IMG/VR virus record: IMGVR_UViG_3300032222_000142
Span: 1-44,070 of that record
Strand: one strand, 5' to 3'
Length of the DNA stretch: 44,070 nucleotides
DNA from: a virus
In this document: piece after piece, positions 1-28,300 of the stretch
Layout: every line of letters begins with the position of its first letter
Numbering within the stretch: position 1 is the stretch's first letter
Program-made: the position numbers and the translations under genes
Notes under the pieces: generated by a model
What the model was told of the DNA's origin: nothing
What the model saw: only the letters and a program-made list of their open reading frames with translations
Database searches by the model: none

Positions 1-957
1 AATGAGTTCAACCCAATCTATCTACATTGGACAGTTCATCCTGAAAGAGACCAAAGATGGAGAGATGAGCAAACAAAAGTATTAGGAGAGAAGTTGGCTG
101 CACAGGAGTGTGATTGCGACTTTATATCTTCCGGTGATACGGTAATTGCTCCTGAAATTCTAATGTGGTACAAGGAAACATTTGTTAAAGACCCGGTTGA
201 AAAGACTGGATTCGATGGTAATTATTGGAAATGGGAATATCCTGATTACAATAAATCTTATATGGTTGTAGCCGACGTTGCCAGAGGTGATGCATCGGAT
301 TACTCAGCTTTCCACGTTATGGATGTAGTTAACAATGTTCAGGTCGCGGAATATAGGGGTAAGATAGATACAAAGGAATTCGGTAACTTTTTAGTTTCAG
401 TTGCAACGGATTATAATAATGCACTATTAGTTGTGGAGAACGCAAACATTGGATGGGCGGCTTTACAGCAATGTATTGATAGGGGATATAATAACATCTA
501 TTATCAAACATCGGATTACAAATATGTTGATGTAGAAAAACAATATAGTAACAAATATGGAGCAGAAGAGAGAAGACAGGTAGCAGGATTTACAACATCA
601 GCTAAAACTCGTCCTCTTATGATTTCCAAATTAGATGAATACTTTAAGGAGAAATCTGTAGTAATACAATCTATAAGAACAATTGATGAGTTATTTACCT
701 TTATATGGTACACTAATAGACCGGAAGCAATGAGAGGATATAACGATGACTTAACGATGTGTCTATCAATTGGTCTGTGGGTTAGGGATACTGCACTCCG
801 TTTGAGGCAAGAAAGGATGGATTTAGTTAAGCAAGGATTAAACTCATTTACATCAACTGGAAACGAAATAGGGGTATATTCTCAAAATTCATTTAAATCA
901 AATCCATATGAAATGGATTTTGGTAGAGAAAAAGAAGATATAAGATGGTTACTTTGA
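1..957 (+). CDS. gp17: Terminase large subunit, C-terminal part (gp17-like), 5' partial
   Basis: The reading frame is open from base 1, so this is the 3' part of a gene that begins outside the window; the first in-frame TTG at 94 is not a real start. The product is the DNA-packaging motor, an ATPase plus nuclease that fills the prohead and cuts the concatemer. Only the RNase H-like nuclease domain and the linker before it are visible. The three acidic positions of the T4 gp17 nuclease can be placed: Asp in ADVARG (codon 274-276), Glu in VVENANIG (codon 436-438) and the Asp pair in YNDDLTM (about 745-750). The ATPase motifs must lie upstream. Its TGA stop overlaps a candidate late promoter leading to the portal gene, the order expected for a packaging and head module. 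Assignment is by recalled family motifs and is strong. Confidence 0.95.
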   Translation, partial: NEFNPIYLHWTVHPERDQRWRDEQTKVLGEKLAAQECDCDFISSGDTVIAPEILMWYKETFVKDPVEKTGFDGNYWKWEYPDYNKSYMVVADVARGDASDYSAFHVMDVVNNVQVAEYRGKIDTKEFGNFLVSVATDYNNALLVVENANIGWAALQQCIDRGYNNIYYQTSDYKYVDVEKQYSNKYGAEERRQVAGFTTSAKTRPLMISKLDEYFKEKSVVIQSIRTIDELFTFIWYTNRPEAMRGYNDDLTMCLSIGLWVRDTALRLRQERMDLVKQGLNSFTSTGNEIGVYSQNSFKSNPYEMDFGREKEDIRWLL

Positions 958-1059: not shown

Positions 1060-2970
1060 ATGGCAGAACAAAACAATTCTTTCTTTGACAAATTACGAAA
1101 AGTATTTTCAACAGGAGTCGTTGTCAAAAAAGAAGGAAACAGAACTAAACTTATTGATACCGAAAATAGTCAACAGGTAACAAATTTAAAGTCGTTAAAA
1201 GATAGATTTTATAGATTACAAACTGGGTACACTCAGGATGTATATCAAACTCAATTATCATATCAGGTAATTCGTAGAGAATTATTCTTAGATTATGATG
1301 CAATGGATAATGACCCTATTATAGCATCTGCATTGGATATATATGCGGATGAATGTACTACTAAAAACGAATATGGGGATGTTCTTACTATTAAAACGGA
1401 AAACCAACAAGTTAAAGAAGTATTAGAGAGTTTATTCTATGATACAATGAATATTGAGTTTAATCTTTGGCCTTGGGTAAGAAATTTAGCCAAATATGGT
1501 GATTGTTTCCTGACATTAGAAATTGCAGAAGGAGAGGGGATTGTAAATGTACACCCACAATCAGTTTATTATGTGACAAGAACAGAGGGGTTAAATGACC
1601 CAAACAGAGTTAATAGAAAACAAGAGGGTATTAAATTCACAGTCGACCCAGATAAATTTGGTAAGCATGAGTATGATAACTTCGAGATGGCTCACTTCCG
1701 TTTGTATTCAGATACAAACTACTTACCATATGGTAAATCAATGATTGAAAACGCAAGAAGATTGTGGAAACAGATTACATTGATGGAAGATGCGATGATG
1801 ATACATCGTATTATGAGAGCTCCTGAAAAAAGAATATTCAAAATTGATATAGGTAACATTCCTCCTCAAGAGGTTGATAACTATATGCAGAAGATTATCA
1901 ATAAGATTAAGAAAACTCCTTTTCAAGACCAAAAGACAGGAGATTACAATCTTAAGTACAATATGATGAACATCACAGAGGATTTCTTTATGCCTGTGAG
2001 AGGTGGTGATAGTGGAACTCAAATCGATACCCTAAGTGGATTGAACTATACTGCAATTGAAGATATTGATTACTTAAAAGCTAAACTATTTGCGGCACTT
2101 AAAGTTCCAAAGGCTTTCTTAGGATATGAAGAGGATATAAATGGTAAGGCTACATTAGCAGCGGAAGATATTCGTTTTGCTAGAACAATTGAAAGAATTC
2201 AAAGAGTAGTAGTATCTGAATTAACTCAGGTAGCTATTGCACATTTAATTGCTCAGGGAGTGGATGGTATGGATGCAGTTGATTTCAAATTAGAATTAAC
2301 TAATCCATCTACAATCTATGAGCAGGAGAAGATAAACTTATGGGCTGAGAAAGTTAGATTGGCAACGGATATGAAAGCATTGAAGTTGTTATCAAATGAT
2401 TGGATTTATCAGAATATATTTAAACTTTCTAGTGAAGAAATCGATGGAGAAAGAACAAATGTAGTTTACGATACATTTGATTTAAACCGATTGAATAAGA
2501 TTGAAAACGAAGGAGTAGACCCATATGAAGAGCAACCCGAACAACCGGCTGAAGGAGGAGAACAGCCTGCCGAAGGAGGAGAGCAGCCTGAAACTGGTAT
2601 GATGGCAGAACCCGCCGATGAACAACCTACACAGGAAGCAGCTGATGCTAGTGCAGAAAATGGTAAATTAGGAGGTAGACCACAGATGACAGGTGATAAT
2701 GGAACTGATGATAACGCTATGGGGAGAGACCCATTAGGTAAAGCGGACATCACTCGTAACTTTGGAAGAGAAACCCGTCATAGTAGAATAGGTGAAAAAC
2801 TTAAAAGTATTGCTGATAAAGATAAGAAATTAAGAGATGCAATTAGAAATAAAATTAATGCAAATAACGCTAGAAAGATTGGTAAAAAGATTATAAGTGA
2901 AGATATAGATGGGCTAAGTGATGATACGGGTTCATTATTAGATGATAAAAACATCTTACCAGATGAATAA
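1060..2970 (+). CDS. gp20: Portal vertex protein (gp20-like)
   Basis: This is the portal protein, forming the ring at the DNA-entry vertex where the terminase docks, head assembly starts and the neck attaches. At 636 residues it is longer than T4 gp20 (524). The N-terminal 480 or so residues look like the T4 portal family, including a stem and crown region with LFAALKVPKAFLG followed by a conserved AAEDIRFARTIERIQ stretch. The extra length is a low-complexity acidic Pro/Glu/Gln/Gly tail from about residue 485, including a 21-base tandem duplication encoding PAEGGEQ twice, then a basic, helical C-terminus. The start at 1060 is preceded by A-rich sequence and no Shine-Dalgarno. The position directly after the terminase supports the call. 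The function of the acidic tail is not known; a role in scaffold or internal-protein contact is only a guess. Confidence 0.93.
   Translation: MAEQNNSFFDKLRKVFSTGVVVKKEGNRTKLIDTENSQQVTNLKSLKDRFYRLQTGYTQDVYQTQLSYQVIRRELFLDYDAMDNDPIIASALDIYADECTTKNEYGDVLTIKTENQQVKEVLESLFYDTMNIEFNLWPWVRNLAKYGDCFLTLEIAEGEGIVNVHPQSVYYVTRTEGLNDPNRVNRKQEGIKFTVDPDKFGKHEYDNFEMAHFRLYSDTNYLPYGKSMIENARRLWKQITLMEDAMMIHRIMRAPEKRIFKIDIGNIPPQEVDNYMQKIINKIKKTPFQDQKTGDYNLKYNMMNITEDFFMPVRGGDSGTQIDTLSGLNYTAIEDIDYLKAKLFAALKVPKAFLGYEEDINGKATLAAEDIRFARTIERIQRVVVSELTQVAIAHLIAQGVDGMDAVDFKLELTNPSTIYEQEKINLWAEKVRLATDMKALKLLSNDWIYQNIFKLSSEEIDGERTNVVYDTFDLNRLNKIENEGVDPYEEQPEQPAEGGEQPAEGGEQPETGMMAEPADEQPTQEAADASAENGKLGGRPQMTGDNGTDDNAMGRDPLGKADITRNFGRETRHSRIGEKLKSIADKDKKLRDAIRNKINANNARKIGKKIISEDIDGLSDDTGSLLDDKNILPDE
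2545..2586 (+). repeat. Two 21-base tandem repeats in the portal gene tail
   Basis: Two adjacent 21-base units (2545-2565 and 2566-2586), differing at a few bases, encode PAEGGEQ twice in the low-complexity acidic C-terminal region of the portal. The unit contains GGAGG, but it is inside the gene and not placed before a start codon. Confidence 0.8.
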
Positions 2971-2994: not shown

Positions 2995-3003
2995 ATATTT
3001 ATA
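2995..3003 (+). promoter_or_regulatory. Candidate late promoter motif ATATTTATA (unit 3049-5958)
   Basis: Exact ATATTTATA followed by GAAGTA, 46 bases before the ATG at 3049. A degenerate second copy (AATATTTACATA) follows at about 3009. It would drive the 3049-5958 gene run. Confidence 0.5.
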
Positions 3004-3048: not shown

Positions 3049-3927
3049 ATGAAAGTTAAACACTCAAAGTTTAAGAATACTGCTATTTTGTTTGAACTAC
3101 TTGTCAAACAAATTACACAAGAGGTATTATCAAATTCGACAAAAAACGTATCTGAAAAGATTATAAAGGAGTTTTTTAGTTCAAATAAAGAATTGGCTAA
3201 AGAATTGAAATTATACAATCAAATCGTTAAAGAAAAGTATTCTTCAATTGATGATGCTAAGTTATTCTTAGAAGAGGTGGCTAAGGAAAGGGTGAAGTTA
3301 GATGAGAATAAACTAAATAAAGAAAAGTACAATCTTATCAAAACAATAAAAGAATCCTATGATTTGGATAAATTCTTATCTTCAAACCTACAGAACTATA
3401 AACTATTAGCTTCTGTTTATAAGGTGTTTGAAACCAAAACATTAGGTAGAAAGGTTGAGATTAGAGATTTTATTGAATCGAATAATACAATATTAGAGCA
3501 TATTGTAAGTAAAAAAATTGCTACAAAACCTGCTGACAAATTATACGAATCATTTAAACAACAATCAGAAGATTTAAGATTGTTAACTTATAAGTTGTTA
3601 ATAGAAAACTTTAATAAGAAGTATTCTAATTTAGATGATTCTCAGAAGGGTTTATTAAGAGAATTCATAAATAACGTTACTAATACATCTGCATTTCCAA
3701 AATTTATAGAAGAAGAGACTAAAAAAGTTCTTAATAATTTGGTAAAAGAATCAAAGAGTATTAGTGATAAAGTGACTAAGATAAAAATATCTGAGATGAT
3801 TAAATTATATAAATCAGATAAATTTCTTAAAGAGAATCAAGATAAGCAAGTTTCAGTTCTAATGCTTACATATGAATTATTAAAAGAAATAAAGAATGTC
3901 AACACAGTTGGAGCAACTAAAAAATAG
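3049..3927 (+). CDS. Unknown head-module protein, largely helical
   Basis: I do not recognise a characterised function. The 292-residue product is Lys/Glu-rich and predicted to be mostly alpha-helical, with no membrane segment or signal peptide. It begins MKVKHSKFKNTAILFELLVKQ; proteins with this kind of N-terminus occur next to portal and protease genes in uncultured T4-type phages, by recollection. It lies between portal and prohead protease, where T4 has the small core proteins gp67 and gp68, so an internal or scaffold-associated role is plausible but unproven. It carries a candidate late promoter upstream and its 3' end overlaps the next gene by 32 bases in the +1 frame, which suggests coupled translation. 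Confidence 0.8.
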   Translation: MKVKHSKFKNTAILFELLVKQITQEVLSNSTKNVSEKIIKEFFSSNKELAKELKLYNQIVKEKYSSIDDAKLFLEEVAKERVKLDENKLNKEKYNLIKTIKESYDLDKFLSSNLQNYKLLASVYKVFETKTLGRKVEIRDFIESNNTILEHIVSKKIATKPADKLYESFKQQSEDLRLLTYKLLIENFNKKYSNLDDSQKGLLREFINNVTNTSAFPKFIEEETKKVLNNLVKESKSISDKVTKIKISEMIKLYKSDKFLKENQDKQVSVLMLTYELLKEIKNVNTVGATKK

Positions 3928-4351
3928 TATCAGAGAAATCCTTTCTGAAATAGAAAAGGAGGAAGAGGATAAATTGAAAAAGGAGGTAACCGTTACGGGT
4001 GATGTAGCGGGGTATGATACTCCTAGAGCATTTTCTAGCAATGGCCAACACAAAAGTGGTTATACTAAAAAGATGGCGAGTTTAACTGGATATTCAGCAG
4101 TTAATGAAAACAGATTTCAAAAATTAAGATTAGACCAAACTATGACACCTAACCAAAAGATTGGATTGGGTGTAAGGGAAATCCGTAGAAAGATTGATGA
4201 AATCGAAAAGTTCTTAGAATGGTATGGTAAAATTAAAAAAGAAAACTCCCTAAAAGGTGAGAATTTTTGGAAAAGAACTAATCACCATATTTATAGAATA
4301 AAGGAAAGGTTATCTAATATTGGTAAAAACGTAACCACCTTAAGAAAATAA
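3896..4351 (+). CDS. Unknown head-module protein
   Basis: A 151-residue protein of unknown function. It has a charged helical N-terminus (about 1-30), a central stretch rich in Gly, Thr and aromatic residues around GYDTPRAF and GYTKKMASLTGYSAV (about 39-70), and a basic helical C-terminal half containing RRKIDEIEKFLEWYGKI. No catalytic motif is visible. Its ATG lies inside the preceding gene (32-base overlap), so it is probably translationally coupled to it. Head-module position suggests a prohead core or head-decoration role; this is inference from context only. Confidence 0.75.
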   Translation: MSTQLEQLKNSIREILSEIEKEEEDKLKKEVTVTGDVAGYDTPRAFSSNGQHKSGYTKKMASLTGYSAVNENRFQKLRLDQTMTPNQKIGLGVREIRRKIDEIEKFLEWYGKIKKENSLKGENFWKRTNHHIYRIKERLSNIGKNVTTLRK

Positions 4352-4364
4352 ATTAGGAATCCCT

Positions 4365-5126
4365 ATGAAAATAACTAGAGAGCAATTAAGAAACATCGTT
4401 GGAGAAGTATTACAAGAAGAGAAGGATTATCAATCATTCTTTAAAGCTATGTTAAAGAAGCATGGTGTATCTTCGCCAGATGAATTCAAATCAGATGAAG
4501 AGAAGAAAGCATTTTTTAATAAAGTAGAAGATACTTGGAAAGGTGTAAGTGAAAGATTAGTTCAATTAAAAGAAGATGAATTAACTGCTAAGCAACAAAA
4601 AATAGATTTAAATAAAAACGGAAAAGTTGATGGAGATGACTTATCTAAATTAAGAGGTGGTGCAAAAACAGAAGCAGAATTATCAGCGGCTCAACAAAAG
4701 ATAGACCTAAACAAAAACGGAAAAGTTGATGGTGATGATTTATCTAAACTAAGAGCTGGTGCAAAAACTGAGGGGGAAGAAGAACAATTACCTCAAACTA
4801 AAATATTGAGTAAAGAAGGTGAAACTTTAGTTAAGAGTGGTGCAGGTAAAATGTACAACATTACAAAAGTAAACGAAACTAAACTAAGAGAAGGAAGATA
4901 CGATGCTGATTTAGATAAAATTGAAGCAGCGGTTAAAAACGCAACATCTTTTATGAATGTAGGTTCTGAATTAAAGAAAGTTGGTATCAAATATGATTTT
5001 ACAACTTCTATGATTCCAATGTATATGATTAAAGTATCTGGTAACACTATTGCGGTTGTTAATAAAAAATACGCAGCTGGTGCAGAGAGAGAAGTTAAGG
5101 ATATTGCAATTGGATTATTAAACTAA
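4365..5126 (+). CDS. Head-module protein with two tandem dockerin/EF-hand calcium loops
   Basis: The 253-residue product has three visible parts. Residues 1-75 are helical and charged. Residues 76-133 hold two nearly identical copies of a dockerin/EF-hand type loop, DLNKNGKVDGDDLSKLR, beginning at Asp81 and Asp114, exactly 33 residues apart. In each loop the calcium positions 1, 3, 5, 9 and 12 are Asp, Asn, Asn, Asp, Asp, as expected for a working site. Residues about 178-253 form a separate mixed alpha/beta domain. It sits between two unknown head proteins and the prohead protease, 13 bases after the previous stop, and the next gene follows after 9 bases. Known: such loops bind calcium, and paired loops form cohesin-binding dockerins. 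Inferred: calcium-dependent folding or contact during head assembly. The biological role is unknown. Confidence 0.8.
   Translation: MKITREQLRNIVGEVLQEEKDYQSFFKAMLKKHGVSSPDEFKSDEEKKAFFNKVEDTWKGVSERLVQLKEDELTAKQQKIDLNKNGKVDGDDLSKLRGGAKTEAELSAAQQKIDLNKNGKVDGDDLSKLRAGAKTEGEEEQLPQTKILSKEGETLVKSGAGKMYNITKVNETKLREGRYDADLDKIEAAVKNATSFMNVGSELKKVGIKYDFTTSMIPMYMIKVSGNTIAVVNKKYAAGAEREVKDIAIGLLN
4590..4763 (+). repeat. Duplicated EF-hand coding unit, period 99 bases
   Basis: Units at 4590-4664 and 4689-4763 encode almost the same 25 residues around the EF-hand loop. Several third-position differences between copies (for example in the Asp, Leu and Gly codons) with the protein unchanged suggest that the duplication is not recent and the sequence is under selection. 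Confidence 0.85.
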
Positions 5127-5135
5127 ATAAGTAAA

Positions 5136-5741
5136 ATGAAATCACTTTTAATAGAAACAAAATTATTTGAGGGAAAGATTAACGAAGACGAAAACGGAGT
5201 AGTTTTGGTTAAAGGTGTATTACAGAGAGCGGATGCACAAAACCAGAATGGTAGAGTGTACCCAAAAGAAATATTAGAAAGAGAGGTTAAGAAATATCAA
5301 CAACTTATTACAGAGAAAAGAGCATTGGGTGAATTAGACCATCCAGAATCTTCTGTAGTTAGTTTGAAGAATGTATCCCATAACATAAGAGAATGCTATT
5401 GGAAAGGAGATGATGTGGTAGGTGTCGTAGAGATATTACCAACTCCATCTGGTAACATATTAAAAGAATTATTAAAAGCGGGAATCCGTTTAGGTATCTC
5501 AAGTAGAGGTATGGGCTCAGTTCAATCCATTGGAGATAATAAAGTAATGGTGGCTGAAGATTTTGAATTGATTGGGTGGGATTTTGTATCTAACCCATCA
5601 ACTCAGGGTGCATTTATGGAAAACTTAAATGAATCGGTATCTTCTAAGAAACAAATTAACGAAACATACGGAACAGATGTATGTGGAGAGTGGTGTAGAA
5701 CTCAACACTTAATTAGAGAAATTATAGAAGAGTTAGCATAA
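5136..5741 (+). CDS. gp21: Prohead core protease (gp21-like, serine peptidase U9 type)
   Basis: This is the maturation protease that degrades the scaffold and trims capsid proteins inside the prohead. At 201 residues it is close to T4 gp21 (212). Family motifs are clear: His69 in GELDHPESS, the serine pair 122-123 in GISSRGMGS, and Asp149 in WDFVSNPS, consistent with the His/Ser/Asp arrangement of herpesvirus-like assembly proteases. Its likely targets are the products at 6085 and 7197; the capsid protein has a fitting LLSE/A site at residue 61. It belongs to the run starting at 3049 and is followed one base later by the bS21 gene. The start at 5136 has an A-rich leader (GTAAA) and no Shine-Dalgarno. 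Confidence 0.92.
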   Translation: MKSLLIETKLFEGKINEDENGVVLVKGVLQRADAQNQNGRVYPKEILEREVKKYQQLITEKRALGELDHPESSVVSLKNVSHNIRECYWKGDDVVGVVEILPTPSGNILKELLKAGIRLGISSRGMGSVQSIGDNKVMVAEDFELIGWDFVSNPSTQGAFMENLNESVSSKKQINETYGTDVCGEWCRTQHLIREIIEELA

Positions 5742-5742
5742 T

Positions 5743-5958
5743 ATGCCAGCGAGAATTTTAATAAAAGTTAAGCAGGGGTCATCTCAAGAGGAGAGCCAAC
5801 GTAATGTAGAAAAGGCTCTTAAAGATTACAAAAACAAAGTTTTTAAACTAAAAATAACGCAGGAATTGCGTGACAGGAAGGAATTTTTGAAACCTTCTGT
5901 AAAGAAAAGATTACAAAAAGAAAAAGCAAAAAGAAAAAATAATTTTAATTTTCTTTAG
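5743..5958 (+). CDS. rpsU: Phage-encoded ribosomal protein bS21 homologue
   Basis: The 71-residue basic protein matches the bS21 family along its core: a short beta-like N-terminus (ARILIKVKQG), then NVEKALKDYK (21-30) and ELRDRKEFLKPSVKKR (41-56), the last being the family's R-x-R/K-x-F/Y-x-KPSV signature. It most resembles the Bacteroidota form as I recall it. bS21 sits on the small subunit near the 3' end of 16S rRNA and affects initiation; in Flavobacterium it helps hide the anti-Shine-Dalgarno sequence. Where the Flavobacterium protein has a conserved Tyr in its C-terminal helix, this one appears to have Arg64, and its tail is shorter and more basic. It starts one base after the protease stop, so it is expressed with head genes, late in infection. 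Viral bS21 genes are known from metagenomes; what they do is not settled. Confidence 0.85.
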   Translation: MPARILIKVKQGSSQEESQRNVEKALKDYKNKVFKLKITQELRDRKEFLKPSVKKRLQKEKAKRKNNFNFL

Positions 5959-5975
5959 TTTTCTATAATTGTTAT

Positions 5976-5984
5976 ATACTTATA
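5976..5984 (+). promoter_or_regulatory. One-mismatch late promoter motif (ATACTTATA) before scaffold gene
   Basis: ATACTTATA differs from the recurring ATATTTATA at one base and is followed by T-GTA as in other copies. It lies 101 bases before the gp22 start, similar to the long leader of the portal gene. Confidence 0.3.
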
Positions 5985-6001
5985 TGTAATTGATTCGAAT
6001 A

Positions 6002-6067
6002 GTCCATCTCTATATGGGCTCACATAATATCAAGTAATCTTATTTAGGCACACACTCATTAGCCTAA
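6002..6067 (+). promoter_or_regulatory. Structured leader of the scaffold/capsid genes: two hairpins
   Basis: Two potential stem-loops lie in the 126-base gap before gp22. The first pairs GTCCAT (6002-6007) with ATGGGC (6014-6019) around a 6-base loop, with one G-T pair. The second pairs TTAGGC (6044-6049) with GCCTAA (6062-6067) around a 12-base loop. Neither has a T-tract, so they are not simple terminators. A stabilising or regulatory 5' leader is possible. The stems are short and could be chance. Confidence 0.3.
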
Positions 6068-6084
6068 CACAATCAAAAAGTAAA

Positions 6085-7167
6085 ATGAATAGTAAACTTT
6101 TGAAAGAAGCAATCGCAGATGCTAAAGCGGTTCGTGAAACAGCATTAGCAAACGCAAAAATCGCTCTAGAAGAGGCTTTTACTCCTAAATTACAATCTAT
6201 GCTTTCTAAAAAATTACAAGAGGAATTAGAAGGCGATGAAAGTGAAGAAGAAGTAGAGTTAACTCAAGAGAATGATGTATCTTCAGAAATCGGTGGTGGT
6301 GATGGTAACAAAATGCCAGCAGCTAAAGCTTTCAGTTCAGCAGCAGAATCAGATGAATTAGGTGCAGCAGATGTAGATAAAATCTCTGCAGCAGTAGGTT
6401 CAGAAGATGAGAACGCTGAGAAAGTAGCGGGAATCACAGAAGGTGAAGAAGAAGAAGATGTAACAGGAGCAACTCCTGATACAGGTATGAACGAAGAAGA
6501 GGAAATGGATGACGTTGACTCTGAAATCGATGAAATTATCAAAGAATTAGAAGCAGCAGCTGATGATGAAGAATCATACGCAACTGAAGGTGAAGAAGAA
6601 ATGGCAGCTCCTGTACCTGAACCAACTGAAGAGCCTGCAGCTGAAGAGCCAGTAGCTGAAGAAGATGAAATTGACTTAGATGAAATTCTAAGAGAAATGG
6701 GATACGGAGATGAGCCTACAGAAGAAGCACCTGTTGCTACTGAAGAAGAGCACTCTGAAGAAGAATTAGATACATTGAAAGCAGAATTAAAATCAGTTCA
6801 ATCTGAATTAGGTGAAGCTATCAGCGTAATCAAATCTTTGAAAGGTACAATCAACGAAGTAAACCTTTTGAATGCTAAATTATTGTATGTGAACAAATTG
6901 TTCCGTTCATTCAATTTAACAAACGAACAAAAATCTAAAGTTGTTGAAACATTAGATAGAACTAAAAATGTAAGAGAAGTTAAGTTAGTATTCTCAACAA
7001 TTGCTGAAAGTTTCAAATTTGGAACTGGAGCAACTAAGAAAGTAACTGCTAAACTTACAGAAAGTTATGCATCAAAGCCAGCACAATCTACTGCACCAAA
7101 ACAAATTATCTCTGAAGATAATTCTGCTGCAATGAGATTCAAAAAATTAGCTGGTATTATCAAGTAA
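6085..7167 (+). CDS. gp22: Prohead core scaffold protein (gp22-like)
   Basis: The scaffold forms the core around which the capsid assembles and is later digested by the gp21-type protease. The 360-residue protein has the expected composition: a helical N-terminus (about 1-50), a long, very acidic Glu/Asp/Ala/Pro-rich middle (about 48-230), a coiled-coil stretch (about 228-265) and a basic helical C-terminus ending in MRFKKLAGIIK. It is longer than T4 gp22 (269), with the excess in the acidic middle. Identification rests on composition plus position between protease and major capsid gene, as in T4. It begins after a 126-base leader and is followed by the capsid gene 29 bases later, so both may share one transcript. 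Confidence 0.88.
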   Translation: MNSKLLKEAIADAKAVRETALANAKIALEEAFTPKLQSMLSKKLQEELEGDESEEEVELTQENDVSSEIGGGDGNKMPAAKAFSSAAESDELGAADVDKISAAVGSEDENAEKVAGITEGEEEEDVTGATPDTGMNEEEEMDDVDSEIDEIIKELEAAADDEESYATEGEEEMAAPVPEPTEEPAAEEPVAEEDEIDLDEILREMGYGDEPTEEAPVATEEEHSEEELDTLKAELKSVQSELGEAISVIKSLKGTINEVNLLNAKLLYVNKLFRSFNLTNEQKSKVVETLDRTKNVREVKLVFSTIAESFKFGTGATKKVTAKLTESYASKPAQSTAPKQIISEDNSAAMRFKKLAGIIK

Positions 7168-7196: not shown

Positions 7197-8831
7197 ATGG
7201 CAAACTTTAATGTTAAATCATTATTAGAGGCGAAAAATCCTCAAGCTGTGATGTTGGAACAAACTAGAGGCCTTAGAACAAAATGGGAAAAAACCGGATT
7301 GTTAGAAGGTATGAAAGATAGAGACCAACATTCTATGGCGGTGCTTTTGGAAAACCAAGCACAACAATTATTATCTGAAGCAACTGCTACAGGTACAAAC
7401 GCAGGCTCTGAAGAGTGGTCTGGTGTTGCTTTACCATTGGTAAGAAGAATCTTTGGTGAAATTGCAGCAAAAGAATTCGTTTCAGTTCAACCAATGAACT
7501 TACCTTCTGGACTTATCTTCTTTATGGACTTCAAATATGGTTCAACTAAAGGTGGTAAAGTAGCAGGTGATTCTTTATATGGTACTGGTTCTAAATTCGG
7601 TAGAACTGAATTGGCACAAGGTGGTTTATATGGAGAAGCTCAGTATGGATACACAATGGCTCCAACTGCATCTGCATCTACAGTAGCTGCTAGAATTGCA
7701 ACTGCATCTTGGGCTGATGTTGGATTTGATTCAAACTTCTCTGCATCATTCAATACAAATGCATCTGCATCTGCAAACTTTAAAAAATTAACTATTTCTT
7801 CTTCTGCATTAACTAACGTTGATATTGAAGCTGCTAAGTTAATTGCTTTAACTGATACTGATATTGCACAAGTTTACCCTCAGTTCACTACACATGATTA
7901 TGCTGGAAACAACATTTCATTCGTAGTAAGAGGTGCAGCTTTACCAACAACTGGTTCAGCTACAGTAACTACAATCGACACAATTAAATTCCAAGAGCAA
8001 CCAGTTGCTTACGATAGAGGTGATTTCGAAGACAAATCTCCAATCGAAAATGGTGCAAACCAATTAGCTGGAACTAACTTAAACATTCCAGAAGTTGATT
8101 TGGAATTAAAGAGCGAATCTATTGTTGCTAAAACAAGAAAATTAAAGGCTGTGTGGACTCCAGAGTTGGCACAAGACTTAAACGCTTACCACTCAATTGA
8201 TGCAGAAGCAGAGTTAACTTCAATGTTATCTGAATACATCTCTTTAGAAATCGATTTAGAAATCTTAGATATGTTACAAGTTAACGCATTAACTACTGAA
8301 TACTGGTCAACAACTGTTGGTGAAGAGTATGTAAATGGTTCTTGGTCAAACACAGGTGGTGCATCTAATGCATACCAAAAGAGTACCTGGTTCCAAACTT
8401 TGGGTATTAAATTAAACAAAGTTTCTAACAAGATTCACCAATTGACTATGAGAGGTGGAGCAAACTTCGTTGTATGTTCTCCTGACGTTGCTACAATTTT
8501 AGAATCAATTCCTGGATTCCACGTGAATGCTGAGAAAGATTCATTACAATTTGCAGCTGGCGTTTCTGTAGTAGGTTCAATCTCTAACAGATACACTGTT
8601 TACAAAAACCCTTATATGACTTCTAACCAAATCTTATTAGGATTTAAAGGTTCAAACTTCTTGGAGACTGGTGCGGTTTACGCTCCATACGTTCCATTGA
8701 TTATGACTCCTTTAGTGTACGACCCAGATAACTTCACTCCAAGAAGAGGAGTTATGACAAGATACGCTAAGAAAATCGTAAGACCAGAATTCTATGGTAA
8801 GATTTATGTAAAAGATTTAGCTAACTTGTAA
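7197..8831 (+). CDS. gp23: Major capsid protein (gp23-like)
   Basis: The main shell protein, HK97 fold, 544 residues against 521 for T4 gp23. The N-terminal 61 residues are a charged helical delta-like region expected to be removed by the prohead protease; LLSE/A at 58-62 fits the family's cleavage rule of a hydrophobic residue two before Glu, giving a mature chain of about 483 residues. The following sequence (LPLVRRIFGEIAAKEFVSVQ at about 78-97, then PMNLPSG) matches the start of mature gp23-type proteins. The C-terminus contains the conserved TPRRGVMTRYAKK near residue 515. The ATG at 7197 follows an A-rich leader without Shine-Dalgarno. A strong terminator follows the gene. Confidence 0.95.
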   Translation: MANFNVKSLLEAKNPQAVMLEQTRGLRTKWEKTGLLEGMKDRDQHSMAVLLENQAQQLLSEATATGTNAGSEEWSGVALPLVRRIFGEIAAKEFVSVQPMNLPSGLIFFMDFKYGSTKGGKVAGDSLYGTGSKFGRTELAQGGLYGEAQYGYTMAPTASASTVAARIATASWADVGFDSNFSASFNTNASASANFKKLTISSSALTNVDIEAAKLIALTDTDIAQVYPQFTTHDYAGNNISFVVRGAALPTTGSATVTTIDTIKFQEQPVAYDRGDFEDKSPIENGANQLAGTNLNIPEVDLELKSESIVAKTRKLKAVWTPELAQDLNAYHSIDAEAELTSMLSEYISLEIDLEILDMLQVNALTTEYWSTTVGEEYVNGSWSNTGGASNAYQKSTWFQTLGIKLNKVSNKIHQLTMRGGANFVVCSPDVATILESIPGFHVNAEKDSLQFAAGVSVVGSISNRYTVYKNPYMTSNQILLGFKGSNFLETGAVYAPYVPLIMTPLVYDPDNFTPRRGVMTRYAKKIVRPEFYGKIYVKDLANL

Positions 8832-10392: not shown

Positions 10393-13300
10393 ATGTCTGT
10401 AACATTAGTAAATAACTCACCGCAATTAACAGTAGCAACCGCAGGAACAAGAGGGTTGACAGGAGCTCATGTAGTATCCGCAGCATTCTCTGGTTCTAAT
10501 TTAATCATAACACTTTCCGATGGGACAGTTGTAAACGCGGGAGGAGCTATATTATCATCGAGTGGTAGTAACAATTGGGTAGGTCAGCAAGCAATAAATG
10601 GTAATGTAATCATAAGTGGTTCGTTCATCGTAAGTGGTTCGAATACATTTATCAATATTGGACCAGCTATTTTGAGTGGCTCTGTTAATGCGGGTACTAC
10701 CTCTATAACAGGAAGTTTAATTGTTAGTGGTGGAACTATAAATGTAATTGGTACAAATTTAGTTAGTGCATCTCAACAATTAAGTTTATTCAATAATACA
10801 GGATTAACGAGTTATACTCAATCTATGTATAACTATTCCAACACTCAATCATTGAATTTGAGTAGCTCTATTGGTTCATTGAGTGGAAGTGTTGGGGTAA
10901 CAACTGCAAATTTAAGTTCATCAATTGGTTCAAATAGAACTGCATTAAGTGCATCTGTATCAATCGTAACATCTGCTTCAAACGCAAGAATAACTAACTT
11001 AGAGGTTGCAAGTGGTAGTATAAGAAGTGATTTTAATTCATACACATCTTCTACTAATACATCCGTAACTGCTTTACAAACTTCAGCATCAACTGCGGTA
11101 AGCGTTAATGATGTACAAACTTCCAAAATAAATTCATTAGAAATACAAAGTGGCAGTTTAGTAATATCAGCATCTTCGCTTAGAACATCTGCTTCTAATA
11201 TGGTTACTAGAACAAGTGCGATATTACAGGCTACAGAAAGTTTGCATATATTTAGCTCATCTGTTAATCAATTTACATCATCTACTATACAGGATATAAA
11301 TTCAATACATTCTACTACTGCATCAATTAATACATTTACTTCATCAGTTGTAGTCAGAAGTGCGTTTAATTCTTATACACAATCTGTGGGTAACACATTG
11401 GCTTTAACAGGTTCAATAAGTTCTTTAAACACATTTACTGCATCGGCATTTGCATCATTCTCCGCTTTACAAGTTACTGCAAGTTCTTTAACTGCATATA
11501 CAACATCTTCAGATAGTGATATAAATAATTTAGAAGTTAGTGCAAGTAGTTTAGTTGTTAGTGCAAGTTCTTTGATAGTATCAGCATCTACTTCTTTATC
11601 TACAAATAACTCACAGACAGCTTCTATAAATTCATTAAACTCATTTAGTAGTAGTGTTAATGCTAAGTTTGATGTAATAGGTGGTAAAACAGGCTCGTAT
11701 GCAACTACATCATCTGTTACTTTACTAAGTGCATCGGTTGACAGTAGATTAAATTCAATAGAAGGTGATTCTGGAAGTTGGGGAGCTTCTACTAACATAA
11801 GTTCTTTAAACACATTTACCGCTTCAGCATTTGCATCATTCTCCGCTTTACAAGTTACTGCAAGTTCTTTAACTGCATATACAACATCTTCAGATAGTGA
11901 TATAAATAATTTAGAAGTTAGTGCAAGTAGTTTGATACTTAGTGCAAGTGCATTAAGAACATCAGCATCTACAGCTTTATCTACTAATAATGCTCAGACA
12001 GCTTCCATAAATTCATTAAGTTCATTTAGTGCAAGTGTAAGTGCTGTGACAAATTCATTACAAAATACAACAGCATCACTAAATTCATTTACATCTAGCA
12101 CAGATAGCAAATTTATTCAAATCGCTATTTCGACAGGAAGTTTATTAGTATCAGCGAGTTCATTGGTAATTAGTGCAAGCGCTTTAACGACATCAGCTTC
12201 TACTGCGTTTAGTACAAATAATTCTCAGGCAAATAGATTAACAATACTAGAATCATATTCATCTTCACTTAGTTCTGCAATAGATGTATCAAATGGAAAT
12301 TTGACGGTATTGGGTAACTTAACTGTTCAGGGAGATACTACCACTCTTAATACTACTAATTTAATAGTAGAGGATAAATTAATTGAATTAGCAAAAGGAA
12401 CAACGACATCAGTTGATGCAAATGGAGCTGGTATTTATATTAGCGGTGCGGATGCAAGTATAACTTGGAATCACGGACAATCTAGAGTAAATGTAAACAA
12501 AGCATTAAATGTATCTGGGAATATAACATTGACAGGAACAGTTGATGGAGTGGATGTATCTACATTATCGACATCTTTTACTGCTGTAAGTTCCTCTTAT
12601 TTATTAGAAAGTGCATCGGTAAGTGCTTCAATCAAAACATTGAATGCATATACTTCATCTAATAATACAAACATAAGTGCGATGCACACTTCAACTGCAT
12701 CGTTAAATACATTTACATCATCAACTTATAATACATTTAGTACATCCGTTGATATTAGATTAGATACAATAGAAGCTTCTTTAGGTGTAGGTGGAAGTGG
12801 AATAGGCATGGATGTTGATAATTTAATTTTAAGTTCATCGGCATCAATTGTTTTAAATAATCAACAACAAGCTAGTTTAAATGGATTACTTAATAGTACT
12901 CCATCCGCATCTGTATTTAGTGTAGTTAGATTATCACAAACTGCTTCTAATTTAACTGGTCAGGTAGCTAATCAAGAAACACGATTAATATCACATACAT
13001 CTAGTATAGCCATATTATTTCAAAGTGCATCTTCGTTATCAGCATCGGTACTTAGTATATTTAACACAAATAATCAACAGAATGCTAAGTTATCCTTAAT
13101 GGAAAACTTTACGGGTTCAACTTTTACAAATTATACTCAATCAGTATCTCAGTCGATTTTACAATTGAGTGCTTCAATTGGAGGAGGTAATGTAATTGGT
13201 TTGGTAAATGGATTAACCTCTTCGGTATCGAATTTATCAATAACTCAATCTGGTATATCGGCTAGTAATTCCGCATTATCAGCTTCATATAATGCTGCAT

Positions 13301-16300
13301 CGGGTGCTTTTAAAATTCAAATTTCTCAATTACAAGACCAAAAAGACAGTTATTTAGATTTTGTAAGTGGAAGCAGAAGTGGTTCATTTCCTAGTTTCCC
13401 TCCGTTCTCAGCATCAGTTGAACAAAGATTTAATTCTATATTAAGTAATATTAATCAAGTATCAAATAGTGCATGGCTAGATTCAGACCAGGTAACATAT
13501 AGTTCATCGGTGGCATTAACTACAAGTGCAAGTCAAGGTAGTTTGTTTAATTTAAGTTCATCTATTTGGAATACCGCTACCGGATTATCAAAAAGTATTA
13601 ACACAAGTATAAGTGAATCATTTAGAAGTGCATCAAACTCTATAAATTCAATTGTAGTAGGAACCGGATTTATACCTAGACTTGAATTTAATAGTGTAAC
13701 TTCTTCATTTAGCGCATCAATTTCTGCATCGAATTCATTTAGTGCATCTGTAACAAGAAGTGTTAATAATACCGTTTTATCAGCTAGTGCTTTACAAGTA
13801 ACTGCATCAAATTTAAGTGCATATACATCTTCATTACAATTGGCATTGCAACCTAATGGTAACAATGTAAATATTAGTGGTAATTTATATGTAAGTGGAA
13901 ATATAGTAGCACAAACATATATTGTAAGTTCATCTGAAATCTATATAACACAGTCAAACTACAATTATAGCGGAAGTAATTTATTTGGAAATGATTATGG
14001 GGATGAGCATGGATTTAGTGGTTCAATAAAATTATTTGGACCATTGGTAATGAGAGCTGGTTTACTTGGACAAGGTAATCAACCGACTTTTATAGATGTA
14101 GCAGGCTCGATAACTTCATCTGGTACACTAAATTCAAACGGAGTATCATCTAGTTACATTAGTGCATCTACATTTGTTAGCGCATCTAATTTTTATGGTG
14201 AGTATAATGGTGTATCAACGCAAGTACACTTATCACAATCTATTGGATATAATAGTTTAACTGCTTCGATTAGTGGAGCTATAAATGCTGCATCGAACTC
14301 ATTATCAGCGAGTATTACTACTACAACTAATACGTTGAGTGGAAGTGTAGATGTGCTATTCACTTCAGCGAGTTCATTGAGAATATCTGCATCCGCAAAT
14401 CGTAATAATATTATATTCCTATATACTTCAGCGAGTTCATTGGAAACTTCTGCTAGTTTATTGAGTGCAATTACATCAGCGAGTATAGCAAGTGGTAGTG
14501 CTAATCAACAAAGTGGTAGTGCTAATAAACAAAGTGGTAGTATATTATTTACATCAGCAAGTTCATTACAAACATCAGCGAGTGTGATGATTACAAGTGC
14601 TTCTAATCTGAGTACATACACACATTCATTGCAACAAGCTATTTCTGTAACAGGAAGTAATTTAAGAGTATTAGGAAATGCAAATATCCAAAACGATTTA
14701 ATAGTAAGTGGAAATATCGTAGCACAAAACTACATCATAAGTTCATCTGTATTAATTATTACAACTTCATTCAGTAGTGGTTCTACTGTATTCGGTGATA
14801 CTATAAATGATACACATCAGTTTACTGGTTCTCTTAATATTACTGGAAGTATTTCATCTTCTGCTACAATTACTGCGGCAACAATTAGTGGTACTATTGC
14901 AGCAGCAAACGGAGTAGTTTCCGGTTCATCTCAGTTTGTAGAATATGGTGGAGCGTTAACTTCATCCAATACGTTTGTTGGTACGCAAACCGTAAACGGA
15001 CAATTAAAAGTAAGTGGTTCGACTACGTTGACAGGAAGTGTAGGAGTAGATTTAAGAAGTGGCAGTCAGTTTTATGTAAGAAATGGTGTAACTAGAATAG
15101 ATTCAGTTTTATTCGTAACAGATAATGATTATGTTAATTCGGCATACGTTGGGGGTGATATTAAAGTAAATGATTACTTAGCAGGAGGATATACTGCTCA
15201 TTATGATGGTGGTGTTCAAATCACCGGTTCATTAAGAGTAAATGCTGGACAAAACGGAAGTGGTTCATATTTCACAGGAAGTGTTTGGATAACAGGAAAC
15301 GAAGCAGTTAGTGGAAACTTACAAGTTGTACAAAATACTTCAGTAAGTGGTAATTTTATCGGAACTACAATTTCGGCATCTTCAGCTGTAACCGCCTCTT
15401 CTTTAAGAGTTGAGGGGTTAACTAGAATTAATGGAGAGGTTGATATTGATACTACACAAATAACAATTGGTGCTGGTGGAAACGCGGTAGCGGATGAAAC
15501 TAGATTAAACACATTAAATTTAAGAGTAGATAGTGATACATTCTTTAATTCAAACGTAACCGCTATATCAGGTTCTACTAGAGTTAAGAGTTTAGCGATA
15601 AACGATTTAAGTATGAGTAGAATTCCTTATGTGGATTCAACTGATACTTTAGTTGATAGTGCAAACTTTACATACAATGGAGTAACATTCAAAATAGGTG
15701 GAGGGGCAGTTGAAATAGATGATGCAACGGGAAATATTAGAACATCGGGTTCATTAAAAGTAGATGGTATAACTACACTTCATTCAACATTAAATGTTAG
15801 TGGAGCAGTTGGTATAACAGGTTCATTGATAGTAACCGGTTCTACAATTATATCCTCATCATTAAGAGTAAATAATACTGCATCGTTCGCACACTTAAAC
15901 GTAACGGGTTCTACGAATGTGACCGGTTCGGTTTCAATAGGTGGAGCTTTAGCAGTAAGTGGAAGTACTAGAGTTAGTGGAAACTTTGCGGTAAGTGGTA
16001 CATTAGATATAAGTGGTAGTGCAACTTTCGATTCATATGTTAATATAACGGGTGGATTAGCGGTAACAGGAGGATTCTCTGTAAAAGGTGAGCCTGTGTT
16101 AATCGGTGATTCAATGACTGATTCCATCATAATATCTGGAGGTTTAGAGATTACGGGTTCTCTCACAAGAAATACTACAAATCTTAGAGCAACGGGTTCA
16201 AACAATCCTGCAGATGCAATATATAGATTAACTGAGGCTCAAGCATGGAGTTCATCTTTTACAACTAATAACACATCAAGTGGTGCTTGGATAAGAACAC

Positions 16301-16446
16301 CTGATGAATATTTAGAATACTTCGTTGGACAAGGTTCTAACAAAAGAAGATATATTACTCCTGTTTGGATAGATGAAACTCTTTACGCAGACGATTACTT
16401 CGATATATCAGTTGTAAGTGGCGCAGATTCAGATTATGTTTTCTAA
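10393..16446 (+). CDS. Giant Ser/Thr-rich tail fibre or virion surface protein
   Basis: A 2017-residue protein made mostly of low-complexity repeats. Residues about 100-630 and 710-1150 alternate short SASSL, TSASN and SLNTFTSS units that look like coiled or trimeric stalk; later parts (about 1150-1950) use beta-type units such as VSGNLxVSGxT and TGSLxVTGST, typical of trimeric beta-helical fibre shafts. Around residues 636-705 is one copy of a module (IVEDKLIEL ... GAGIYISG ... ITWNH) shared with the fibres at 22308 and 25369. A 137-base segment occurs twice, 381 bases apart. The C-terminus ends in an ordinary globular-looking domain (WIDETLYADDYFDI), with no S74 chaperone. No enzyme motif is seen. 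Ser/Thr content makes it a possible target of the glycosyltransferase at 33998 (inference). Confidence 0.85.
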   Translation: MSVTLVNNSPQLTVATAGTRGLTGAHVVSAAFSGSNLIITLSDGTVVNAGGAILSSSGSNNWVGQQAINGNVIISGSFIVSGSNTFINIGPAILSGSVNAGTTSITGSLIVSGGTINVIGTNLVSASQQLSLFNNTGLTSYTQSMYNYSNTQSLNLSSSIGSLSGSVGVTTANLSSSIGSNRTALSASVSIVTSASNARITNLEVASGSIRSDFNSYTSSTNTSVTALQTSASTAVSVNDVQTSKINSLEIQSGSLVISASSLRTSASNMVTRTSAILQATESLHIFSSSVNQFTSSTIQDINSIHSTTASINTFTSSVVVRSAFNSYTQSVGNTLALTGSISSLNTFTASAFASFSALQVTASSLTAYTTSSDSDINNLEVSASSLVVSASSLIVSASTSLSTNNSQTASINSLNSFSSSVNAKFDVIGGKTGSYATTSSVTLLSASVDSRLNSIEGDSGSWGASTNISSLNTFTASAFASFSALQVTASSLTAYTTSSDSDINNLEVSASSLILSASALRTSASTALSTNNAQTASINSLSSFSASVSAVTNSLQNTTASLNSFTSSTDSKFIQIAISTGSLLVSASSLVISASALTTSASTAFSTNNSQANRLTILESYSSSLSSAIDVSNGNLTVLGNLTVQGDTTTLNTTNLIVEDKLIELAKGTTTSVDANGAGIYISGADASITWNHGQSRVNVNKALNVSGNITLTGTVDGVDVSTLSTSFTAVSSSYLLESASVSASIKTLNAYTSSNNTNISAMHTSTASLNTFTSSTYNTFSTSVDIRLDTIEASLGVGGSGIGMDVDNLILSSSASIVLNNQQQASLNGLLNSTPSASVFSVVRLSQTASNLTGQVANQETRLISHTSSIAILFQSASSLSASVLSIFNTNNQQNAKLSLMENFTGSTFTNYTQSVSQSILQLSASIGGGNVIGLVNGLTSSVSNLSITQSGISASNSALSASYNAASGAFKIQISQLQDQKDSYLDFVSGSRSGSFPSFPPFSASVEQRFNSILSNINQVSNSAWLDSDQVTYSSSVALTTSASQGSLFNLSSSIWNTATGLSKSINTSISESFRSASNSINSIVVGTGFIPRLEFNSVTSSFSASISASNSFSASVTRSVNNTVLSASALQVTASNLSAYTSSLQLALQPNGNNVNISGNLYVSGNIVAQTYIVSSSEIYITQSNYNYSGSNLFGNDYGDEHGFSGSIKLFGPLVMRAGLLGQGNQPTFIDVAGSITSSGTLNSNGVSSSYISASTFVSASNFYGEYNGVSTQVHLSQSIGYNSLTASISGAINAASNSLSASITTTTNTLSGSVDVLFTSASSLRISASANRNNIIFLYTSASSLETSASLLSAITSASIASGSANQQSGSANKQSGSILFTSASSLQTSASVMITSASNLSTYTHSLQQAISVTGSNLRVLGNANIQNDLIVSGNIVAQNYIISSSVLIITTSFSSGSTVFGDTINDTHQFTGSLNITGSISSSATITAATISGTIAAANGVVSGSSQFVEYGGALTSSNTFVGTQTVNGQLKVSGSTTLTGSVGVDLRSGSQFYVRNGVTRIDSVLFVTDNDYVNSAYVGGDIKVNDYLAGGYTAHYDGGVQITGSLRVNAGQNGSGSYFTGSVWITGNEAVSGNLQVVQNTSVSGNFIGTTISASSAVTASSLRVEGLTRINGEVDIDTTQITIGAGGNAVADETRLNTLNLRVDSDTFFNSNVTAISGSTRVKSLAINDLSMSRIPYVDSTDTLVDSANFTYNGVTFKIGGGAVEIDDATGNIRTSGSLKVDGITTLHSTLNVSGAVGITGSLIVTGSTIISSSLRVNNTASFAHLNVTGSTNVTGSVSIGGALAVSGSTRVSGNFAVSGTLDISGSATFDSYVNITGGLAVTGGFSVKGEPVLIGDSMTDSIIISGGLEITGSLTRNTTNLRATGSNNPADAIYRLTEAQAWSSSFTTNNTSSGAWIRTPDEYLEYFVGQGSNKRRYITPVWIDETLYADDYFDISVVSGADSDYVF
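11416..11933 (+). repeat. Two copies of a 137-base segment in the giant fibre gene
   Basis: 11416-11552 and 11797-11933 are nearly identical (a few changes around the Thr-Ala-Ser codons), 381 bases or 127 codons apart, in the same frame. They encode the same stretch beginning ISSLNTFTASAFASF. The near identity suggests recent duplication or gene conversion. Confidence 0.88.
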
Positions 16447-25368: not shown

Positions 25369-28300
25369 ATGAAAGTAATAGGTAAACAAAGTTCGGGAGT
25401 AAGTTTAGTAGCAAGTGGTACACTTGGTATATCAGTATTAGGAAATAACGAAATACTGATGACTAATGATACTATATTCTTTTCATCATCTTTGGTGGTA
25501 AGTGAATCATTATTCGCATCAGGAAATACTCAATTAGGTATTAACACCGCTAGTACACATGAGATAACTGGTAGTTTTTTATTAACAGGTTCTTCTAAAC
25601 AAATCGGAACATCAGTAATAACGGGTAGTATAACTGTAACAAGGGATTCAACTTTCATTCAAGATGTATATGTAAGTGGTACTTTAAAAGGGCCTTTCTC
25701 TTCTTCAATCGAACAGAGAGTTAATGCTTTAGAAGAACAAAGATTTATATTAGGAGGAGATGTAAGTGCGAATGCGGTATTAACTGGTTCAGCACAATCC
25801 ACATATACGGCTTCATTAAACATAACATTAAATCAAATATCAGCTTCTCAGATTATTTTTCCTGAAGAATCTAAAAAAGTTTATGTAGCGGAATATGGTA
25901 GTGATATTTTAATAACTCCACATAGAGGTAAATCACCGGCAACTGCATTCAAAACAATTAAAGCAGCTGTACAAAGTATATACGGAAACTATCAAATATC
26001 AGCTTCACAAGTTAGTGGCTCTGGTCAAAGTGGTTCTGCAACTGAAGCATCTATTATTTCACAATCATACGCAACTGTTGCTGAAATTTTGGCAGGTGGG
26101 TTAGGTGTAACTCCAGCCGTTGTAAAAAATGGTGCAACTGATTTAGTATTGGTTGGTAACACATCACAAAGTTTTTACGATGGATATGGTGGAAATGCAG
26201 AATCATCATCGGTGAGTTCTTCATTTGCAACCGTAATAAACATATTAGGAAATGGATTAGGTGCAGTTCCTGCATTAGTAGAAAATGGTAGAACACCTGT
26301 AAAACTTTCTACAAATGTTCAAATAACTGGAACAGGTGGTACTAATGCAGTATCATCATCAATCAGTTCATCATTTGCGGTTATTACATCTATTATCAAC
26401 GGAGGAGTAGGAGTTGCACCATCGGTTGTTAATAATGCAGAAGCGATTACAACAGATGCGAATAAATTAAATGCTAGAACATTAGTATTAAGAAATAAAG
26501 GGTTTATACAGGATGAAACAATTGAGTACTTAAGTGCGGTTTATCCTTATTTTGATTATAATAGATTAAGATGTAAGAGAGATGTTGGTTTACTTATTGA
26601 TGCGGTATTAGATGATTTAGTATTCGGAGGAAATCAAAGAACGGTTGAAGCAGGGGTATCATATTATAATGGTAACTTTGGTGATGCATCTAATGTACCT
26701 GGAGCACAAAAAGAACAAACTATTGCGGCAATTCTTTATGCAAGTAGAATGGCACAAATCATTTCAATTAACGGAACGATTTCAGCACCATCTGTAGCTA
26801 AAGGAAATGCAAAGGCTGCATTATTAGGAAACAAAAAACTTATTCAAGAAGAGATAATCTACTTCATTGAGCATGTTTATATAAAAGGTAAAGACCAAAC
26901 AGGTACACCATTTACTTACAATAGAGATAAGTGTAGAAGAGATATTGGATTTATTATAGATGGAGTTGCTACAGATTTAATATTCGGTGGTAATCAACAA
27001 TCTATCATAAGTGGTAAAGCATATTATGATGGTGTTTATGGAAATGGTGAAGTAGTAGTAAATGACCAATTAGTTGAGACTGTAACATCGATTTCATATG
27101 GAGCTAGAATAGCTAAAGATGCTGTTGTAGGTAATGTAGTTCCTAAACTTTCTACAAATAAAAAGAATGCAGTTTCCTTATTGGAAATGAATAAGAAATT
27201 CTTAGGTGAACAAACCGTAGGATTAATATCTTCATCGTTCCCTAACTTAATTTATAGTTCATCTAAGTGTAGTAGAGACGTTGGTTTGATTACTGATTGT
27301 GTTATCGTAGATTTAATCTATGGTGGTAACGAACAGGCAATAGAAGCCGGTACACAATATTACACAAACGCGTATGGTGATGCATCAGAAGTTCCTGCAT
27401 CTCAATTAACAGAGACAGTAGCAGGTATTTTATATGCGGGTGCTATTGCACAAAAAGTTGCAAGAGATATATTTGTAACAAATACATATGCACCTTGGTT
27501 CTCTCCGTTTACAAACTATAACACAACTGTATATGTAGAAACTGGGACATATGTAGAAGATAACCCAATTGTACTTCCTCCTGGAGTTGCAATTAAAGGA
27601 GATACGTTAAGACAATCATTATTATATGCGAAGAATCCTAAATTGGATTACTTCCACGTACATAGTTCAGATTATATAGATTCAGTAAGATTCTTAGATT
27701 TACAGAGACCATCATTTGCGGTGGCTTTTCCATCTGCTATTATTGATTATACAATACAATCTGGTAGAATTACAAATCCAGTTATATTATATTCTCCTAT
27801 TGGATATACATCATCTGTAAACATTATAGTAGAAGAGCCTGATTCTCCACCAGAAAGTGGTTCAATTAGAGCTGAATTTACAACTGTTATTTCGAATGGT
27901 AAAATCGTTGGATTAACTTATGTAAACTCAGGTAGTGGATATGTTTCTACAGAAAGACCGCATATCTCAGTTCCTGCTCCAGAAAATCAAAGACCATTTA
28001 TTCAAGCATCTCCATATGTTTGGAACTCATCAGCAATCACAGGACCATTTAATTTTAATGGGGAGAAGATTTCTGAATTAGTTCCACTTCCATATGATTT
28101 AGAAGATTTAGGCGTTGATAATACTGGTGCCGGTGGTGGTATGAGAGTGGATGGTAATTGTTGTAGAGAAGCTGCACCTCGTTCTCCACTTCGTTCAATG
28201 GTTGCTGCGGCATTTACGCAGGTTAACCAAGGAGGACCTGGACACCACGTTTGTAATACGGGATACGCTCAGTTCGTATCTATGTTCACCACATATTGTA

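Follow-up and report, generated by a model that had tools for sequence, protein, structure and literature searches.

What would a phage gain from a gene for the ribosomal protein bS21 placed among its head genes, directly behind the prohead protease? The question is raised by a virus record of 44,070 bases, the whole of which was analysed and is referred to below as the window. The sequence-only reading had recognised here a bS21-like protein, one base past the protease gene, with the KPSV core and an arginine (Arg64) where Flavobacterium has a tyrosine, and these remarks are borne out. A single base separates the stop of gp21 (5741) from the bS21 ORF, the KPSV core is present, and the profile alignment sets Arg64 in the column of Flavobacterium Tyr54, the residue that stacks on the anti-Shine-Dalgarno (anti-SD) sequence. 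Profile searches identified the product as a member of PF01165 (40.1 bits, E-value 3e-10; Pfam cut-off 27) and matched it to PHROG 21469 "ribosomal protein S21" (E-value 2.6e-4); it falls 0.85 bit short of the NCBIfam equivalog TIGR00030 (28.1 bits, cut-off 28.95), and because of this miss we would file it as a PF01165 family member and not as an S21p equivalog. Among solved chains the closest by sequence belongs to the F. johnsoniae ribosome: its bS21 (7jil_z, E-value 1.8e-6). Eleven near relatives on other contigs (90-100% identical) and a median dN/dS of 0.125 (45 pairs; 0.071 in 34 pairs for gp21) argue against a chance ORF, the latter value pointing to purifying selection. The AlphaFold2 model (helices 15-35, 38-44 and 51-70; mean pLDDT 84.3, pTM 0.52) adds little, since a Foldseek search of the PDB with it returned no match at E ≤ 0.001. 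This is a real, conserved phage bS21, a variant of a published kind, and what deserves testing is its non-aromatic position 54.

Table 1. Features around the bS21 gene of the window.
Feature	Coordinates	Strand	Evidence or remark
TerL, 3' part	94..957	+	PHROG terminase, E 1.9e-12
gp20 portal protein	1060..2970	+	PF07230
TATTTATA motif	2996..3003	+	closest intergenic promoter-like site 5' of the unit that ends with bS21 (inferred)
Three hypothetical genes, portal-protease interval (3049-3927, 3896-4351, 4365-5126)	3049..5126	+	order kept in relatives
gp21 prohead protease	5136..5741	+	PF03420, 103.7 bits
Phage bS21 gene	5743..5958	+	71 aa, ATG start; Arg64 in Tyr54-equivalent column
TATACTTAT motif	5975..5983	+	after bS21, before RNA leader; promoter-like (inferred)
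Conserved structured RNA leader of scaffold gene	5985..6072	+	covariation, models; independent of bS21
Scaffold-like gene	6085..7167	+	position and similarity among relatives
Major capsid protein gp23	7197..8831	+	PF07068

The phage is T4-like (Table 1), with its major capsid protein (MCP) closest to those of the uncultured 484-kb phage LR756508 (53.9% identity), Microcystis phage Mel-JY01 (49.6%) and Flavobacterium phage immuto (48.7%); the scaffold-like gene has no Pfam or PHROG match. The motif [LI]xE, which we take to be the cleavage consensus of T4 gp21, is found by eye in the MCP (QLLSE) and is absent from bS21. Among 80 viral loci picked by similarity to the protease, independently of bS21, all 20 with a protease identity of at least 76% have bS21 as the next gene on the same strand, with a gap of -1 or +1 base in 17 of them, 13 in one and 199 in two. 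Of the other 60, one (L183) carries a different bS21 4.2 kb further on, and the remaining 59 have none in the DNA fetched, the next position after the protease being mostly taken by another gene; in at least three of these cases the contig runs out no more than 80 bases from the protease. Six contigs of the sister group (31-136 kb) lack bS21 in the entire record, which makes the gene dispensable among close kin. In L129, L136, L168 and other sister loci without bS21 a different conserved gene (MAKNFDIYDYVHNNK...) follows gp21, which suggests a cargo site in the interval from gp21 to the scaffold leader.

A wider set of 62 distinct viral bS21 (loci chosen by similarity to the window bS21, to an alignment of its relatives or to a protease alignment, plus two phage records) comprises 37 on the head-gene strand, 18 on the opposite strand and 7 without a marker gene in the fetched DNA. 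All but one of the 37 sit 126-189 bases 5' of the scaffold gene, the distance in Mel-JY01 being 1,445. Placement inside the head module, which had been called unusual, proves not to be so: the available text of Chen et al. 2022 (PMC9723584) describes bS21 near the prohead protease or MCP across hundreds of phages, with the protease at most 10 genes away in 310 of 900 published bS21 phages. Their clades a-e share with the window the T4-like myovirus head genes around bS21 (TerL, portal, protease, MCP), a Bacteroidetes-type bS21, SD-poor hosts and an inferred late role; in the part of that paper available, however, bS21 runs antisense to the head genes and is always aromatic at position 54, whereas the window bS21 lies on the same strand directly after gp21 and has Arg. 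Mel-JY01 (RpsU, PP395634.1; a literature search found no paper on this phage) likewise carries bS21 on the head-gene strand in the protease-scaffold interval, with a leader RNA of the same kind 5' of the scaffold gene; it differs from the window in a bS21 that is not Bacteroidia-type, in its use of SDs and in one ORF between protease and bS21.

Several further observations concern this gene set. A tblastn search of phage records with the window bS21 gave LR745206 as its sole match. LR756508 contains an unannotated bS21 directly 5' of the scaffold gene (L031:6810-7049), with Met at position 54 and not Bacteroidia-type. The 75-aa ORF right after gp21 in immuto was considered as a diverged bS21 and dropped, as no likeness was visible by eye. 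The head-module hypothetical gene 4365-5126 (+) encodes two near-identical AQQKIDLNKNGKVDGDDLSKLR-type repeats resembling EF-hand/dockerin calcium loops, with every Pfam match under its cut-off. ORFs 10393-16446 and 25369-33996 (+) encode proteins of 2017 and 2875 aa with repeated Ser/Ala/Thr stretches, fibre-like by eye, the C-terminal part of the latter seeming to resemble a peptidase-type fibre chaperone.

How the gene may be expressed is suggested by a promoter-like motif, TATTTATA, which in gene direction is the reverse complement of the T4 late promoter TATAAATA. It occurs 18 times over the two strands of the window together against 9.6 expected (none of 100 shuffles reached this number). 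Sites of this type are intergenic at 13 of 17 plus-strand positions in a window made up to 96.7% of genes, and lie 25-110 bases 5' of gp20, ORF 3049, the scaffold gene and ten others, including ORFs 36857 and 39241 (tail sheath- and tail tube-like by eye). Plus-strand TATTTATA sites at 958, 2996, 9572, 9988, 16456, 17290, 22270, 36503, 36819, 39216, 39806 and 40840 stand 25-102 bases 5' of structural genes. None precedes gp21 or bS21 (further upstream there is one at 4288, inside a gene), and since the nearest intergenic site is that at 2996, bS21 would most simply be the last gene of a unit 3049-5958, off the scaffold-MCP unit. In a 164-kb relative the motif lies within 120 bases of 16 of 193 head-strand genes, eight of which belong to the opening 21 kb with the head genes. 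This layout, together with RNA data in the available text of PMC9723584, according to which bS21 is transcribed together with structural genes in other phages, suggests late expression of the window bS21.

The scaffold gene is preceded by an RNA leader whose predicted fold has an outer helix, an inner hairpin and one further hairpin. Across 11 relatives 98.6% of its pair cells are standard and seven pairs are changed on both sides, with no compensatory variation in the outer helix; sliding the partners by 1-3 columns lowers pairing to 26-43%. A model built from these relatives, on which the window scores by construction, also matches sister phages (E-values 9e-4 and 1.2e-3), and a second model matches Mel-JY01 just 5' of its scaffold gene (2.9e-4), these E-values being rough, the second model holding just 10 pairs and the Mel-JY01 alignment breaking the three pairs of one helix. 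In the 164-kb relative the search gave a strong copy and a second, weak match (E-value 0.039). Copies lie at 5985-6072 (+) of the window, L265:18264-18351 (-), L136:7622-7714 and L030:7768-7854, and the leader stands immediately 5' of the scaffold gene in T4-like phages of Bacteroidota, whether or not they carry bS21, and probably also in Mel-JY01. Rfam gave nothing at gathering level across the window and chance-level matches only in 5900-6120, and a literature search on phage capsid or scaffold leader RNAs turned up nothing relevant among 8 of 65 entries. We considered bS21 and the leader as one system and rejected it: of 31 loci that have the scaffold gene and no bS21 match, 29 show the TGAATA core by eye, the two exceptions being immuto (a divergent leader form) and L147 (a mis-called scaffold start). 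As the leader occurs without bS21, it is no part of bS21 function.

The claim that the phage messages lack SD sequences is upheld for the window overall. An SD-like motif stands ahead of 3 of the 27 genes in the window and of 7 of 158 in the 164-kb relative (its bS21 is 96% identical), with anti-SD pairing energies near the shuffled level in both. Elsewhere the counts are 2/56 in a Flavobacterium phage, 6/129 in Tyr-type cells, 19/51 in Mel-JY01 and 37/173 in Arg-type cells, where use is uneven among genomes; gene starts come from a script that took the longest ORF and its first ATG, which makes all these figures approximate. The window starts are A-rich, as described for hosts in the available text of PMC9976891. 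Strong pairing is also missing where viral bS21 genes begin: not one of 48 such starts falls below -9 kcal/mol, whereas 66 of the 137 cellular ones lie below -13 (by group 28/53, 6/14 and 32/70), and the upstream region of L004, near-identical to that of the window, reaches -3.2 kcal/mol. The phage copy thus lacks the autoregulatory SD of rpsU described in PMC9976891, as far as that source is available.

With column 54 masked, the window bS21 scores 49.1 bits with a model of Bacteroidia (Tyr-type) cells and 34.1 bits with one of Arg-type cells, in the same direction in 10/10 resamples; the controls of this test were right in 14/14 and 52/53 cases. All 27 distinct Arg-type viral bS21 prefer the Bacteroidia model (10/10 balanced resamples, column 54 masked), and only Mel-JY01 and LR756508 never fit it better. 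The tree (118 rows, 61 columns), for which the program warned of few columns and which leaves 43 of 114 inner branches open, assigns the window to a phage clade of 40 rows (97/88), which is nested in a supported grouping of phages with Tyr-type cells (96/94) and separated from Arg-type cells (93/96). The phylogeny that the sequence-only reading had proposed thus groups the protein with phages and Tyr-type cells as Bacteroidia-type. From the SD-free starts, the bS21 type and the MCP kinship with immuto we infer a host among the Bacteroidetes, presumably in Bacteroidia.

The function to which we would give about an even chance is that of a replacement bS21, made together with the structural proteins, which would keep the 30S subunit fit for SD-less initiation outside the host rpsU feedback. 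The gene would have been captured long ago from a Bacteroidia-type cell and would be expressed as the final gene of the structural-gene unit; having no strong SD, it would escape the feedback, its product would enter the 30S subunit instead of, or alongside, host bS21, and ribosomes would stay competent for SD-less initiation during bulk synthesis of capsid protein. In the window lineage the Tyr that stacks on the 16S 3' tail has been replaced by Arg, which probably alters how the anti-SD tail is held and does not release it. The supply of bS21 would matter because F. johnsoniae without the bS21 C-terminus is crippled in SD-less initiation, according to the available text of PMC9976891. The F. 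johnsoniae protein (7jil) shares fold family and Bacteroidia-type sequence with that of the window, which differs in Arg64 for Tyr54, a longer N-terminal stretch and no strong SD at its start. The PF01165 match, the masked type test, the tree, the SD-free genes, the weak bS21 starts, the upstream motif and purifying selection speak for a replacement bS21; the TIGR00030 miss, the bS21-less kin and the lack of a Foldseek match speak against it, as does the near inactivity of hybrid E. coli ribosomes that had incorporated a different phage bS21 (PMC6375957, available in part). That protein, from Pelagibacter phage HTVC008M, is phage-borne like the window's and enters ribosomes in E. coli, and is unlike it in its alphaproteobacterial type and host.

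What Arg64 does is a separate question. In the Bacteroidia-type bS21 that occludes the anti-SD, Tyr54 or another aromatic residue stacks on A1534; the window protein is of this type in its overall sequence and has Arg64 at that position. In PMC9723584, as far as available, position 54 is Tyr in 54/61 and another aromatic residue in 7/61, that is, aromatic in 61/61. Our 62 distinct viral bS21 have Arg (27), Tyr (19), His (10), Phe (2), Lys (2) and Met (1), one being truncated; 30 of the 61 scorable sequences (27 of them Arg) are non-aromatic, so about half of the sample departs from the published picture. Non-aromatic residues occur in 29/37 proteins encoded on the head-gene strand (8/37 aromatic) and in 0/17 antisense ones (17/17 aromatic, in agreement with PMC9723584; Fisher 2e-8). 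We rejected a functional link between orientation and residue 54: on the tree, orientation has to change just twice, and supported branches provide a single independent pair. Both layouts go back to old lineages and do not count as independent events, which leaves the relation an association. The nearest kin of the window bS21 have Arg, Lys or His, and L122-L124, with the same gene order, keep Tyr; together with the Bacteroidia-type test this marks Arg as derived within the phages.

Cells of the phylum are themselves divided. A first survey (78/80 Tyr) overstated conservation, as its search patterns favour Bacteroidia; a sample of 70, skewed in that it joins the 30 best Pfam scores to 40 lower picks and leaves out the lowest scorers of 197 genomes, has 55 Arg and 15 Tyr. 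Arg being native in other phylum members, it need not mean lost anti-SD masking and may be another way of holding the tail; that the rpsU SD still pairs below -13 kcal/mol in 28 of the 53 Arg cells counted suggests that masking works with Arg. The Chlorobia without Y54 still satisfy the rpsU-SD criteria of PMC9976891, according to its available text. We regard it as possible, if rather unlikely, that a lineage of SD-free Bacteroidota phages uses a late-inserted bS21, with Tyr54 changed to Arg, Lys or His, to rebuild the pocket of the 16S anti-SD tail and so alter the message choice of host ribosomes; candidates for such a masking switch have so far been found solely among phages with bS21 on the head-gene strand.

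A different mechanism, which we consider unlikely, is that phage bS21, by way of changed mRNA-facing residues in its N-terminal part, makes ribosomes favour the late mRNAs of the phage. The N-terminal part is indeed divergent, with an extra stretch GSSQEESQRN in the window clade that F. johnsoniae bS21 lacks, and the co-transcription with structural genes seen in other phages would fit. Since Tyr-type host-like cells are SD-free too (6/129 genes), however, an absent SD does not separate phage mRNA from host mRNA; the window starts are A-rich like those described for hosts, and no phage-specific start signal is shown; and Y54A ribosomes gain on strong-SD mRNA and bind SD-less mRNA somewhat less well, the opposite direction (PMC9976891, available in part). 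The core of this idea, a late swap-in of phage bS21 that favours phage mRNA, is already in the available text of PMC9723584. The sequence-only reading had proposed it as favouring late SD-free mRNAs; its premise of SD-free phage genes stands, and the preference is left weak by the SD-free hosts, by the direction of the Y54A effect and by Arg being normal elsewhere in the phylum.

It is improbable that Arg64 instead frees the 16S tail as Y54A does, so that SD-bearing mRNAs (host rpsU, rare phage genes) become usable. In the available text of PMC9976891, Y54A raises strong-SD translation 3-fold in vitro, and some Arg-type cells do use SDs; yet a phage whose genes lack SDs would gain little, and many Arg-type cells are SD-poor, more than half of those counted retaining a very strong rpsU SD.

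A host outside Bacteroidia, an Arg-native member of the phylum whose residue the phage merely matches, was raised by the sample of 70 with its Arg majority and seems equally improbable: Tyr-type cells fit the window protein better when column 54 is masked, L122-L124 keep Tyr in the same gene order, and the tree places the window with Tyr-type cells. That bS21 is head cargo, packed in the virion and acting as infection starts (also raised in the available text of PMC9723584), is very improbable, as bS21 lacks the cleavage motif seen in the MCP and unrelated genes occupy the slot in kin, although the slot lies between protease and scaffold gene in the window clade and one gene further on in Mel-JY01.

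We return to the replacement bS21 as the favoured function. Published bS21 of Bacteroidetes phages keep an aromatic residue at position 54, and about half of the distinct viral bS21 sampled here do not, which makes them natural variants for position-54 function. With these variants one can ask whether phages retune position 54 on SD-blind ribosomes, a question for which F. johnsoniae is suited.
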